From contig JANXUC010000179.1 in the NCBI GenBank assembly GCA_025352065.1, positions 1 through 64,000 of the forward strand: a stretch of 64,000 nucleotides of DNA, in the 5' to 3' direction. Below, in pieces: positions 32,008-64,000 of this stretch. The notes under the pieces are model-generated. The model saw only the letters and a program-made list of their open reading frames with translations. It ran no database searches and had not been told where the DNA came from. Made by a program: the position numbers and the translations under genes. Position 1 is the first letter of the stretch, and every line of letters begins with the position of its first letter. The DNA is from Acidobacteriaceae bacterium. Its GTDB lineage: Bacteria; Acidobacteriota; Terriglobia; Terriglobales; Acidobacteriaceae.

Positions 32008-32529
32008 CTAGACTGCGGCTTCGCGATCTCCCCCACCCACCGCCTTCACCATCAAACTAACCAGCTTCCCCTCGTCCGCCACCAACTGCCCCACTTCGGC
32101 GAACCCTAACTTCTTGTGAAACGCCGCCGACCCAGGATTCGGCGGCTCAAGATTCACTTCACACGTCAGAATCGGCGCCACGCCAGCCTCACCAGAAAGA
32201 AGCGCCGCTTGTTCCACATCCGCATAAAGCGCCCGACCAATCCCTAAGCCGTTAAATTGCGGAGCCACCACAATCCGGTCAATGTACACAAAGTTCTCAT
32301 ACCGCTCGCAGAACCAGCGGTAGTTCAGGCTCTGGTAATTTTCCCCCGGACGCAGCGCCATCAGAAACCCGGCCACCGCTCCATCCACACAGGCCACGCC
32401 AAAATAGAAACACTGCCCCGCGAGCACAGAAAATTCTGACTCGGTCAGGCTGCTCACATGCGGCAGCGCACCCTCATTCATCGCCAATACAGCCGCATAA
32501 TCCGCTCTCTCGGCGGCCCGAATCTGCAT
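32008..32529 (-). CDS. GNAT-family N-acetyltransferase
   Basis: 173 residues with the GNAT fold: an N-terminal MQIRAAERADYAAVLAMNEGALP, a central FVYIDRIVVAPQFNGLGIGRALY segment holding the acetyl-CoA pyrophosphate-binding Q/RxxGxG/A pattern (QFNGLGIG), and a C-terminal NPGSAAFHKKLGFAEVG. It acetylates an amine of unknown identity. It sits between intact parB and a parB remnant, so it is probably a recent arrival at this locus. Confidence 0.85.
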   Translation of the reverse strand: MQIRAAERADYAAVLAMNEGALPHVSSLTESEFSVLAGQCFYFGVACVDGAVAGFLMALRPGENYQSLNYRWFCERYENFVYIDRIVVAPQFNGLGIGRALYADVEQAALLSGEAGVAPILTCEVNLEPPNPGSAAFHKKLGFAEVGQLVADEGKLVSLMVKAVGGGDREAAV

Positions 32530-32531
32530 CC

Positions 32532-32575
32532 CTCTGTGAACCTCTGTGCTCTCTGTGATGAAAAGGTTTTGACTT
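32532..32575. repeat. Dispersed repeat family B
   Basis: CCCTCTGTGAACCTCTGTGC then CTCTGTGATGAAAAGG, between parB and the acetyltransferase gene. Confidence 0.65.
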
Positions 32576-32594
32576 GGATCTCACTGGCAACTGA

Positions 32595-33614
32595 CTACTG
32601 GTGGCTGCCCTTCAGCATCTCTACCACGCGATCAAAATCTTCCAGGGTCTTGTACTCGATCAAAATACTTCCCCGCCCGCTCTTGTCTTTAATCTTCACC
32701 CGCACGCCCAGCGCCTCCTCCAGCGTCCGTTCCGCCAGTCGCACGTTGGGATCGACGTACCGCACTTCCCCTGGCTTGCGCCCACCCTCATCTGGGACGT
32801 TGATGTTGTAAACAATCTGTTCCAAGGAACGAACGGAAGTTCCGTCCTCGGCCGCTTTCGCCGCCACCCGCTCCGCGATTTGCGGATCGCGCAGGCCGAG
32901 CAGGATTTTCGCGTGGCCAAACTCCAGCTTCCCTGCCTGCAGCAACGCCTGCACCGCAGCGGGCAGCTTCAGCATGCGCATGTAGTTCGCCACCGTCGAG
33001 CGCTCCACGCCTGTTCGTAGCGAAATTTCATTCTGCGTCAGTTGGAATTCTTCACTCAACCTTCCAAACGCCCGCGCCTGATCGAAGCAGTTCAAATCCT
33101 GCCGCATCAGGTTCTCGATGATGGTCAGCTCCATCGCCTGCATGTTCGAAACGGTGCGAATCACCGCCGGGATCGTCGGCTTCCCCGCCCGCTTCGATGC
33201 CTTCCAGCGGCACTCGCCCGCAATCAGGATGAATCTGCCGCCATCCTCGGTGGGCCGCACCGATATCGGCTGCAAAACGCCGCTTGCGCGAATCGATGCC
33301 GTCAACTCCGCCATGTACTCCTCGCTCACCTGCGAGCGCGTCTGGTACGGGTTTGGATCGATGTCTTCAAGTTTCAATTGCAGAACTTGATGCCAACGCT
33401 CGCCCTTTTCGGAGAGCTCCGACTCCGGCCCCATCGCGTTGCGGAAAGCTTCTGCGGCGCCTGCGGGGCTAGGCGCGACGGCCCTCGGCCCAGGCAACAG
33501 AGACTCCAACCCCCGCCCCAACGCCTTCCGCTTCTCCAGAGTTTTTTCCATCGGCTTATCTCCAATTTTCTCCACTGCCTTCTCCACCGTATTCTCAGCC
33601 GCCAATGCTATCAA
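32595..33614 (-). CDS. parB: Chromosome-partitioning protein ParB
   Basis: 339 residues. An N-terminal KALGRGLESLLPG (about 30-42) interacts with ParA; residues 75-170 are the ParB/Srx CTP-binding domain with ENLMRQDLN at 167-175; residues about 180-245 hold the helix-turn-helix that reads parS (SLRTGVERSTVANYMRMLKLP); the C-terminus dimerises. The usual GERRWRA box reads GECRWKA at 133-139, a departure from consensus. M22 (33551) is an alternative start. It is transcribed just after parA, and six parS sites lie upstream of the pair. Confidence 0.96.
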   Translation of the reverse strand: MIALAAENTVEKAVEKIGDKPMEKTLEKRKALGRGLESLLPGPRAVAPSPAGAAEAFRNAMGPESELSEKGERWHQVLQLKLEDIDPNPYQTRSQVSEEYMAELTASIRASGVLQPISVRPTEDGGRFILIAGECRWKASKRAGKPTIPAVIRTVSNMQAMELTIIENLMRQDLNCFDQARAFGRLSEEFQLTQNEISLRTGVERSTVANYMRMLKLPAAVQALLQAGKLEFGHAKILLGLRDPQIAERVAAKAAEDGTSVRSLEQIVYNINVPDEGGRKPGEVRYVDPNVRLAERTLEEALGVRVKIKDKSGRGSILIEYKTLEDFDRVVEMLKGSHQ

Positions 33615-53497: not shown

Positions 53498-53986
53498 CTA
53501 CCCGGGGAGTTTCCGCAGCTCCGCCAGCAGCTCCTCCTTATCCGGCAACGAGTCCAGCGGATAGATCTTTACAAACGCGATCTTCCCATCCGTATCCACA
53601 ATGAATGCGGCGCGTTCACTGATTCCAGGAACCGGCGGCGCGACCCGCAAAATGCCATACTCCGAGGTCGCCCCCGCGTGGGGATAAAAATCCGCGCACA
53701 GCGGAAACTCCATCATTCCAATTTCTTTTTTTTGCCACGCAATGTGGCTGCTGACCGAATCCACGCTAATGTCCAGGACCTGGGCATTCAAGCCGGCGAA
53801 CGTTGCAAGATCCGCGTTCAACGCCGGCAACTGCAGCGCTCAAGTTGGAGTCCAGTCCAGCGGGTGGAACACGATCACGACATTCCTCTTGCCGCGAAAA
53901 TCGCTGAGTCTGACACGATGCTCATGATCGCCAGTACACGCCGCAAGATCGAAATCGGGAGCTTCGTCGCCAACCTGCAAAGACAT
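53498..53986 (-). CDS. Peroxiredoxin with selenocysteine (TGA) at the catalytic position, predicted selenoprotein
   Basis: 162 residues when the TGA at 53842-53840 is read as selenocysteine. The start ATG 53986 has GAGGAA 5 bases upstream. MSLQVGDEAPDFDLAACTGD, then VVIVFHPLDWTPT, is a standard thioredoxin-fold peroxiredoxin N-terminus; the in-frame TGA is residue 49, precisely the Cys of the PxxxTxxC motif. The frame continues intact (ALQLPALNADLATF, VDSVSSHIAWQKKEIGMMEF, the conserved Arg in ERAAFIVD) to the normal end. A nested hairpin with a G-containing apical loop lies 9-38 bases after the TGA, within bacterial SECIS range. A nonsense mutation of TGC/TGT is the alternative. It would reduce peroxides. 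Confidence 0.82.
53812..53842 (-). promoter_or_regulatory. Possible bacterial SECIS element after the in-frame TGA
   Basis: Counting from the base after TGA: CC (13-14), bulged G15, GCGU (16-19), loop UGA (20-22), ACGC (23-26), GG (27-28), with an outer GUUGC/GCAAC pairing (9-13 with 34-38) as alternative. A short stem with G in the apical loop at this distance fits the loose bacterial SECIS pattern. Structure is by eye only. Confidence 0.4.
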
Positions 53987-54014
53987 ACGGATTCCTCAGG
54001 ACCAGAATACTAGA

Positions 54015-54048: not shown

Positions 54049-54444
54049 CTAAATTCGATCCAAAACGTCAACCGTACGATCGCCGCGAACGTTGCCGGTG
54101 TTCAATGTCGTCTTCGGCTCCAGCAGCATGATATGCGTTTCTTCGTCGGCGCGGGGTTTATGCTCAACGCCTTTTGGAATAATGATGAACTCTCCCTGAT
54201 GAATGACTACCTCGCGCTGTGCGCCTCCATCGCCCTGCAATCCCATGAACAGGCAGCCCTTCACCACCAGAAACAGTTCATCTTCGTGGTCGTGGTGGTG
54301 CCAGACGAACTCCCCCTGCAGCTTGACCAGCTTCACGTAGGAATCGTTCAGCTCGCCAACGATCTTTGGAGAATAGTGTTCCTGGAAAAGAGAAAACTTG
54401 TCGGCCAGCGAGACTTTCGCCACATCTGTCGTGCTCGTGCTCAT
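54049..54444 (-). CDS. Cupin-domain protein
   Basis: 131 residues from ATG 54444 (MSTSTTDVAKVSLADKFSLF), where a GGAG box sits upstream; the frame continues to 54501 but those codons belong to the divergent promoter region. A single cupin barrel is visible: FVWHHHDHEDELFLVVKGCL holds the motif-1 His residues and Glu, and GEFIIIPKGVEHKPRADEE motif 2 with the final His. A metal-dependent or sugar-binding role is possible. It lies upstream of the predicted selenoperoxiredoxin on the same strand. Confidence 0.85.
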   Translation of the reverse strand: MSTSTTDVAKVSLADKFSLFQEHYSPKIVGELNDSYVKLVKLQGEFVWHHHDHEDELFLVVKGCLFMGLQGDGGAQREVVIHQGEFIIIPKGVEHKPRADEETHIMLLEPKTTLNTGNVRGDRTVDVLDRI

Positions 54445-54494
54445 TGAACTCTCCGAGGGTATGGGTTGTACACTCCCTATGTTATATTTTGGCC

Positions 54495-55070
54495 ATGCCA
54501 AACCTCAATCGCCGCAATCTTCTCTATGCTTTTGGCCTCGCCTCCGTTGCTCCGTTGCTGCCCGCGCAGACTGCCGCGACGGGAAAAGTCTCCGTAGCCA
54601 TGCCCGGAGAGACCCGCTTCTCGTTCTCCACCGCGTCGCAAGCCAAGCTCAGCCCCTGCAAGCTGACCGGCGACGACACGGGCGGCGCGCTCACCGCTTT
54701 TGAGCTCAGCGCACTGCCGCAAACGGGCCCCTACCTCCATGTGCATCACCGCCAGGATGAGTGGTATTACGTTTTATCTGGAGAATTCCTTTTCAAGGCT
54801 GGCGGCGTGGAGCACACGCTACCGACAGGTGCGAGCATCTGGCTGCCGCGCGGCATCCCCCATGTCTGGGCCAACATGGCGACAACGGAGAGCAAATTGA
54901 TCTTAGTGTGCCAGCCTGGCGGGTTTGAGAAATTCTTTGAAGAAATGGGGGCAGCGATGTCGAAAGCGGACGCAGCCAACGCAGAAAAGATCATGTCGGC
55001 TATGTTCACCAAGTATGGAATGGAAATGTTAGGCCCGCCGCTGTTCAAGCCGTTGCGGTCCATGCACTAG
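54495..55070 (+). CDS. Exported cupin-domain protein with twin-arginine-like signal
   Basis: 191 residues from ATG 54495. The N-terminus NRRNLLYAFGLASVAPLLPA resembles a Tat signal (Arg-Arg then a hydrophobic stretch). A cupin barrel follows, with GPYLHVHHRQDEWYYVLSGEFLF (motif 1, His, His, Glu) and ASIWLPRGIPHVWANM (motif 2 His). The C-terminal 50 residues are helical. Similar exported cupins are common in soil bacteria, with unknown substrate. It is divergent from the other cupin gene, with only 50 bp between starts. Confidence 0.85.
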   Translation: MPNLNRRNLLYAFGLASVAPLLPAQTAATGKVSVAMPGETRFSFSTASQAKLSPCKLTGDDTGGALTAFELSALPQTGPYLHVHHRQDEWYYVLSGEFLFKAGGVEHTLPTGASIWLPRGIPHVWANMATTESKLILVCQPGGFEKFFEEMGAAMSKADAANAEKIMSAMFTKYGMEMLGPPLFKPLRSMH

Positions 55071-61883: not shown

Positions 61884-63692
61884 TTACAACAATCCCAGAT
61901 GGTCTGGATACTTGGCCTGCAGAGAACTCACCAAAATTTCGAACTCCGGAAGGGCGCGTAAATTTTGGAGGCACGGATCATTGGCGAAGAGCGGCCAGCA
62001 AGCGAACCCGGTGCTGACGCTGCGCTCCAGCCATTCGAAGGCTGCGGCTGGCTGCTTGAGCACCGCGAGGATGCACGCGATTTGATAGTAGGTATGGTGC
62101 GCGTGTCCAAAAGATTTTGGACTCGCACAGGCTTTTGCCACGTGCTCCATGGCTCGGTCGGCTTGGCCGGTCATCGCGTGGAAAAGACCCTGCAGGCTCA
62201 CGATCATCGGTTCGTCGGGCAACATCTGTACTGCTTCTTGCAGAAGAGTTTCAGCTTCCTTCCAATCGCCTGTCCTCATCGCCAGCTGCGGCGCAAAATA
62301 AACGGGGTATTTGTTTCCCGGCGCCTCAGCCAGCCACGCTGCAATTTCGTCGCGAGCCAGGTCGTACTCCTGTTTCCAGACATAGGCTTGGACAATGCTG
62401 TGGCTTACTGCCTTCTTGGGATGGAACGGGCGGCCTCTCTCATACATTGCACAGGCATGGTCAAGCAGGCCGATGTGCGCCAGAATTGTTCCGAGCCGGT
62501 TGTAGGCATGCGGCAGATTGGACTGCAAGGCGAGGGCTCGCCGCAGTTCTGCAATGGCTTCCAGGTGCTGAAAGTTTTTCGACGGCCCCCATAGTAGAAA
62601 GGCATTTGCGACGTGCCCCTCGGGCAAATTTGGATCCAATTCCAAGGCACGGCGGCAGTGAAACTCCGCCCTCTCCAGCCAAATTCGAGCGGGATCGAGC
62701 TCGAAGTGGCGGGAGGCATAGACCAGCGAAAGAGTGGCATGGGCTAACGAGAAGCCTGGGTCGCGCGCGACCGCCGCGCTCAGACGTTGTGCGGCTTCGT
62801 GGAGCAGCGCAGGATCGCCGGACGAGCTGAGCCGGTAGCCGCGCATAAACTCCGCATAGGCGAAGGGGTCTTTGCTGTGCCGTGGACGCTGCTGGTTTGC
62901 TGGCGGACGTAGCGGCCGATTCAGCGCCTTCGCAATCTGTCGGGCAAGATCGTTCTCCAGCTCGAACAGCTTATCCAGATCGAGCCTACACTTAAGCGAG
63001 AGGCATGCATTTTGCGAGTGCAGGTCCAGCACTTCCATCGAAAGGCGCCATTGCCCTTTGGTTTCGCGTATCGCGCCGTGTGCGACGAAGCGCACACCGA
63101 GACGCGAACCCGCATCTGAAGCTGCCATTTCCGCGGGAAGGCTTAGCGTTGCCGAAGTTGGCAACACATCCACACCCTGAAGATTTCCAAGTCGCGACAC
63201 CAATGCATCCGCCAAGCCGACACACACTCCCCGGTCGTCGGTAGCATCGCCGACAAGAACCAGCGGTAGAACGGCGAGCGACGACCGCTCGCTCAAGGCT
63301 GAAGCGGATCGGTGACTGGTTTCTCCTGCTGCGTTTCGTTCTAAATTCGATAGCTCAGCATGAGCTTCAACTACACGAACCGGTCCAATGAATCGATAGC
63401 CCTTGCCGACAACTGTTTCCAGGAAGCGCGGCTTCGCGGAGTCATCGCCTAACGCAGCACGGATTTTTCGCACAATGTTGTTGACGTTTGGCTCGGCGTC
63501 GATGAAGAGGTCCGAGCGCCAAAGCTTCTTAACAATTTCTTTGCGCGGAACCAACTGATCCCTGCGGCTAACCAGGAAGATCAGCAGTTCCATGGGCTTC
63601 TTTTCGAGCTTCACACGCCGCCCGTGGCGGCGAAGTTCGTAGCGCCCAAGGTCGAGCTCGATTCCTTCTGGTGCTGCTTTTGTGCTCCGCAT
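61884..63692 (-). CDS. CadC-like winged-helix regulator with TPR domain
   Basis: 602 residues from ATG 63692 (GAGG 6 bases upstream); a frame to 63746 exists. Residues about 8-105 are an OmpR/PhoB-type winged-helix DNA-binding domain (ELRRHGRRVKLEKKPMELLIFLV, VNNIVRKIRAALGD, VGKGYRFIGPVRV). Then comes a region like the adenylate-cyclase/SARP-type sensor (SLAVLPLVLVGDATDDR), and TPR-like helices from about residue 270 to the end. There is no clear membrane segment, unlike classical CadC. It probably controls the adjacent amidase gene, 36 bp downstream. A truncated duplicate lies at 59717-59947. Confidence 0.9.
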   Translation of the reverse strand: MRSTKAAPEGIELDLGRYELRRHGRRVKLEKKPMELLIFLVSRRDQLVPRKEIVKKLWRSDLFIDAEPNVNNIVRKIRAALGDDSAKPRFLETVVGKGYRFIGPVRVVEAHAELSNLERNAAGETSHRSASALSERSSLAVLPLVLVGDATDDRGVCVGLADALVSRLGNLQGVDVLPTSATLSLPAEMAASDAGSRLGVRFVAHGAIRETKGQWRLSMEVLDLHSQNACLSLKCRLDLDKLFELENDLARQIAKALNRPLRPPANQQRPRHSKDPFAYAEFMRGYRLSSSGDPALLHEAAQRLSAAVARDPGFSLAHATLSLVYASRHFELDPARIWLERAEFHCRRALELDPNLPEGHVANAFLLWGPSKNFQHLEAIAELRRALALQSNLPHAYNRLGTILAHIGLLDHACAMYERGRPFHPKKAVSHSIVQAYVWKQEYDLARDEIAAWLAEAPGNKYPVYFAPQLAMRTGDWKEAETLLQEAVQMLPDEPMIVSLQGLFHAMTGQADRAMEHVAKACASPKSFGHAHHTYYQIACILAVLKQPAAAFEWLERSVSTGFACWPLFANDPCLQNLRALPEFEILVSSLQAKYPDHLGLL

Positions 63693-63883
63693 GGCGGCCT
63701 CTTCAGAATTATCCCCTGAGATCGAATAGTTTACGCCGATATACAAAAGATATGAAAAAGTTAGCCGGTTTCAATTGAAACTGGCTAAGCATTTGTGGGA
63801 ACATCCGGGTAGTTCGATATACCAATGATCGGCAATCTGAAGATCAACTCAAAGATCAACCTCGAACAACGGAGACAGATACT

Positions 63884-64000
63884 ATGCAACGGAATTTCTA
63901 CCTCGCAGTCGCGGCGCTCGGACTCGTTGGCCTGACGGGCCTGGTCCTTACCCTTGGAGCCCAAACGGCTTCCTCTGAAAAGCATGCGTTCACGCCCGAT
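63884..64000 (+). CDS. Exported protein, 5' end only (runs off the window)
   Basis: 39 codons from ATG 63884, which has GGAGA 9-13 bases before it. MQRNFYLAVAALGLVGLTGL continues to a cleavage-like GAQTAS, so a Sec signal peptide is likely. The rest lies outside the window, so no function can be given. It is divergent from the regulator gene, 191 bp apart. Confidence 0.75.
   Translation, partial: MQRNFYLAVAALGLVGLTGLVLTLGAQTASSEKHAFTPD

Follow-up and report, generated by a model that had tools for sequence, protein, structure and literature searches.

The TGA that interrupts the peroxiredoxin frame at positions 53498 to 53986 of the window (the whole stretch of DNA analysed, 64,000 nucleotides) almost certainly encodes an active-site selenocysteine (Sec). 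From its sequence and relatives, the gene is predicted to be a genuine selenoprotein gene in which UGA is read as Sec, with a probability of about 96%. The features are listed in Table 1.

The frame lies on the minus strand, opens with an ATG at 53986 and closes with a TAG ending at 53498. The residues FHPLDWTPT precede the TGA and ALQLPALNADL follow it, with no other interruption. The initial annotation of this DNA had described a minus-strand frame preceded by GAGGAA, with a TGA at residue 49 in place of the catalytic Cys, and all of this was recovered when the sequence was read again. The joined protein matched the Pfam family AhpC-TSA over residues 5-138 with an E value of 2.6e-29, and the match spans the TGA. 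The list of open reading frames obtained by standard rules contained just a 110-residue fragment of the gene (53498..53830), in keeping with the earlier statement that an ordinary gene caller breaks it.

Table 1. Positions of the peroxiredoxin gene, its elements, the neighbouring gene and selD
Feature	Position	Strand	Basis
Predicted selenoprotein gene, 162-residue AhpC/TSA peroxiredoxin, Sec at residue 49	53498..53986	minus	sequence, Pfam, homologues
Shine-Dalgarno GAGGAA, 5 bases 5' of ATG	53992..53997	minus	sequence
In-frame TGA, predicted Sec codon 49, peroxidatic Cys position (PLDWTPTU)	53840..53842	minus	frame and homologue column
Putative bacterial SECIS hairpin, outer stem GCCGGCG/CGCCGGC (7 bp)	53792..53828	minus	comparison of Sec and Cys genes
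Cupin protein gene, same-strand upstream neighbour, 62 bases from peroxiredoxin gene	54049..54501	minus	ORF, Pfam
SelD, itself a selenoprotein gene	L018, G000:C80:71799-72731	minus	in-frame TGA in KAAGU

As a check on chance, all 64 kb were scanned for frames that read through a TGA and that long ordinary ORFs do not cover. Three candidates were obtained, and the peroxiredoxin frame was the only one without overlap with long ORFs. The other two (32257-32811 and 63671-64000, both on the plus strand) gave no Pfam match and are probably open through one TGA by chance. The upstream cupin gene is possibly co-transcribed with the peroxiredoxin gene. When a conserved neighbourhood was sought at the homologue loci, a cupin relative was found near just one other locus (L136), and no operon is therefore claimed.

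The initial annotation had proposed a search for selA, selB, selD and tRNA-Sec, and all four were found in the same genome (4.25 Mb in 183 contigs, 98% complete). The tRNA-Sec scored 75.4 bits, and its anticodon was given as TCA by ARAGORN, i.e. tRNA-Sec(UCA). SelA (545.1 bits), SelB (383.6 bits) and SelD (368.6 bits) all scored above their curated cut-offs. The gene for SelD contains one in-frame TGA, which is codon 18 if the ATG at MSDTKK is codon 1 and lies within the N-terminal KAAGU motif, in the region of the known active site of SelD. With SelA, SelB, SelD and tRNA-Sec all present, decoding of UGA as Sec is available in the host cell.

A search at the protein level in 100 related genomes gave close homologues, and most of the best matches carried one in-frame TGA. 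At codon 49 the best 30 loci, from 30 genera of one family, had TGA in 26 cases and a Cys codon in the other 4; all the frames were complete, with lengths of 159-169 residues up to the stop. Searching a collection of named genomes as well gave 80 loci, partly the same genes as the first 30. These carried TGA (55), TGC (21) or TGT (4) and no other codon in this column, with the frame open on both sides. They came mostly from Terriglobia, the remainder from Nitrospirota, Myxococcota (Anaeromyxobacter), Armatimonadota, Chloroflexi and other Acidobacteriota. The comparison of relatives at this column, also suggested earlier, thus yielded TGA or Cys with intact downstream sequence. A tree of 96 peroxiredoxin proteins needs at least 7 changes between Sec and Cys, their direction being left free in a tree without a root.

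Many of the related genomes also have peroxiredoxin-like genes of a second group, which is more distant (about 33-44% identity), again with one in-frame TGA and with open frames mostly of 185-290 residues. Examples are G004:C17:12914-13327, G023:C303:1440-1853, G049:C13:34639-35052 and G098:C60:10431-11414; in genomes G098 and G084 two such genes adjoin each other.

Among 60 genomes searched in the family of the source organism, 28 had the TGA peroxiredoxin, the source genome included. A strong tRNA-Sec match (over 60 bits) was present in 24 of these 28 genomes and in 12 of the 32 without the TGA form (Fisher p 1.4e-4, uncorrected for kinship). Four genomes (G001, G006, G056 and G059) contained the TGA peroxiredoxin and gave no strong tRNA-Sec match. 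As all four have SelA, at over 500 bits, their tRNA-Sec was likely missed or is missing from the assembly; alternatively it may be divergent. SelA was also present in the four genomes with the Cys form of the peroxiredoxin.

The initial annotation had placed a candidate SECIS hairpin 9-13 bases past the TGA. When the Sec genes were aligned from the TGA, a common outer stem, GCCGGCG/CGCCGGC, was seen starting about 12 bases on, the distance also found in the source gene. It encloses a second, smaller helix, and the loop is usually GAxCx. In the source gene the apical region lies around GGATCTT, about 27-30 bases past the TGA, and all 7 outer pairs are present. The 26 Sec genes formed 152 of 182 outer pairs with a mean MFE of -17.1 kcal/mol, compared with 122.9 ± 4.5 pairs and -10.4 kcal/mol in synonymous-codon shuffles, a null that handles related genes as independent and therefore inflates the z-scores. 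The 4 Cys homologues formed 14 of 28 outer pairs against 14.7 in synonymous shuffles and thus had no excess. Changes on both sides were found for 9 of 13 hairpin pairs, a value as high in none of 500 shuffles; sliding the pairing by 1-3 columns abolished this covariation, and the signal was absent when it was sought in the 4 Cys genes. The contrast was seen again with further genes: 44 Sec genes had an MFE of -17.2 against -9.6 in shuffles, and 22 Cys genes -9.6 against -9.2. Since covariation and an excess over the synonymous null occur in Sec genes and not in Cys genes, the hairpin downstream of the TGA is most likely a SECIS element, and the earlier candidate is one conserved in Sec genes with no excess in the Cys homologues.

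The support for the hairpin comes from comparison, as the source gene folded alone showed no extra stability over dinucleotide shuffles (z 0.04). A published bSECIS model (PMC13188914) calls for a loop 16-37 nt after the UGA, an upper stem of 4-16 bp, an MFE of at most -7.5 and a G within the first two loop positions. Spacing, stem and energy of the source hairpin fit this model. The MFE fold of the source gene differs from the family model in its apical pairing, so that the G is present in the family pairing (loop GATCT; -15.7 kcal/mol) and absent from the MFE loop (AUCUUG; -17.1 kcal/mol). Across the family the loop usually begins with GA, compared with the typical GG or GU. An Rfam scan of the gene region did not find any SECIS family and gave a chance match only.

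Readings other than Sec were weighed against these results. The UGA might be read as Trp, or a recoded tRNA might insert Cys. In favour of this, no amino acid other than Cys takes the place of the TGA in homologues, and some bacteria are known to have unusual tRNA-Sec and variants that insert Cys. Nevertheless, this reading is very unlikely: the tRNA-Sec in the genome is canonical and is accompanied by SelA, SelB and SelD, and the SECIS-like hairpin goes with the TGA forms only. In several relatives the same peroxiredoxin gene also terminates with TGA, and TGA is therefore not simply read as an amino acid there.

A pseudogene, in which a recent nonsense mutation halts translation and the remainder decays, is less probable still. 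In most genes a TGA ends translation, and the source gene, on a fairly long branch, differs by 35-40% from the closest of its relatives. However, 26 of 30 and 55 of 80 homologues have the same TGA followed by a complete frame, and it occurs in Acidobacteriota, Nitrospirota, Myxococcota, Armatimonadota and Chloroflexi. An error of sequencing or assembly concealing a TGC or TGT, conceivable for a codon read from the assembly alone in a draft of 183 contigs and with Cys in 4 of 30 homologues, is just as improbable, given the TGA at the same codon in independent genomes, the Sec-type hairpin with all its outer pairs in this gene and the whole Sec machinery in the genome. Neither a nonsense mutation nor a sequencing error can give the pattern observed across the homologues. 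The reading as a selenocysteine peroxiredoxin, which the initial annotation had put forward, is thus supported by the machinery, by the TGA/Cys column and by the conserved hairpin.

According to the proposed mechanism, SelA would make Sec-tRNA-Sec from selenophosphate provided by SelD, and SelB would recognise the hairpin just past the UGA and bring Sec-tRNA-Sec to codon 49. In peroxiredoxins the attacking residue sits in a conserved motif, and because of this motif Sec49 would be the residue that attacks the peroxide. The selenenic acid formed would then be reduced by a thiol. Its resolution could fall to Cys97, which is kept in 22 of 30 homologues, or to an external thiol. That selenium is incorporated, that the enzyme is active and that a thiol is its reductant are predictions made from the sequence.

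The result corrects the annotation of a gene that standard gene callers would break in two, and the distribution given above indicates that soil Acidobacteriota commonly have Sec peroxiredoxins (28/60 genomes of the source's family). The paired Sec and Cys orthologues, in which the hairpin is present or absent to match, form a good natural set for studying when Sec is kept and when it is traded for Cys.

The family name PrxU, used in the initial annotation, does not fit. PrxU of Eubacterium acidaminophilum (Sohling 2001, as cited in PMC9312934; NCBIfam NF040737) is likewise a selenocysteine peroxiredoxin with Sec at the same active-site position. The source protein, however, has 162 residues compared with 233 positions in the profile, and it scored 76.2 bits against NF040737, so far under the curated cut-off of 270 that it belongs to a different subfamily. 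The best single-sequence match in solved structures was AhpE (Rv2238c) of Mycobacterium tuberculosis (PDB 1xxu, 1xvw, 4x0x), which is of similar length and has the same motif and a similar FPLxxDFxPH region. The matches to Pfam and PDB make the fold clear. AhpE differs in having Cys, not Sec, and in having Leu where the relatives of the source gene mostly have Cys97. AhpE-type peroxiredoxins are marked by one peroxidatic residue and lack the usual resolving Cys. Since a profile search put a plant 2-Cys Prx first (122.6 bits versus about 105), membership in the AhpE group is a lead only. Tentatively, and with some doubt, the genes might be regarded as small Sec peroxiredoxins that form a distinct, broadly spread subfamily, apart from PrxU and with its centre in soil Terriglobia. 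Within it Sec and Cys would have replaced each other repeatedly, with at least 7 changes on the tree, in genomes that retain the Sec machinery, and Cys97 might serve as an unusual resolving residue. A description of a Terriglobia clade of Sec peroxiredoxins was not found in the open-access literature, which is weak evidence.

The source gene is a further member of the long-known TxxU peroxiredoxin selenoprotein family (COG1225/PF00578; Zhang 2006, PMC1794560; reviewed in 2022 and 2026, PMC9312934 and PMC13188914), and the finding is real but expected. The 2006 survey listed 12 TxxU peroxiredoxins, and its counts also include three in Anaeromyxobacter dehalogenans and, for Acidobacteria, four selenoproteins of three families (PMC1794560); a survey in 2016 counted 91 Prx selenoproteins (PMC5029168). 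The UGA at the peroxidatic Cys of PF00578, Sec and Cys homologues and the machinery were all found for the source gene. Like the known members it has the PxxxTxxU motif, exchange of Sec and Cys among its homologues and a SECIS-like hairpin downstream; it differs from them in nothing essential and represents the family in Terriglobia.
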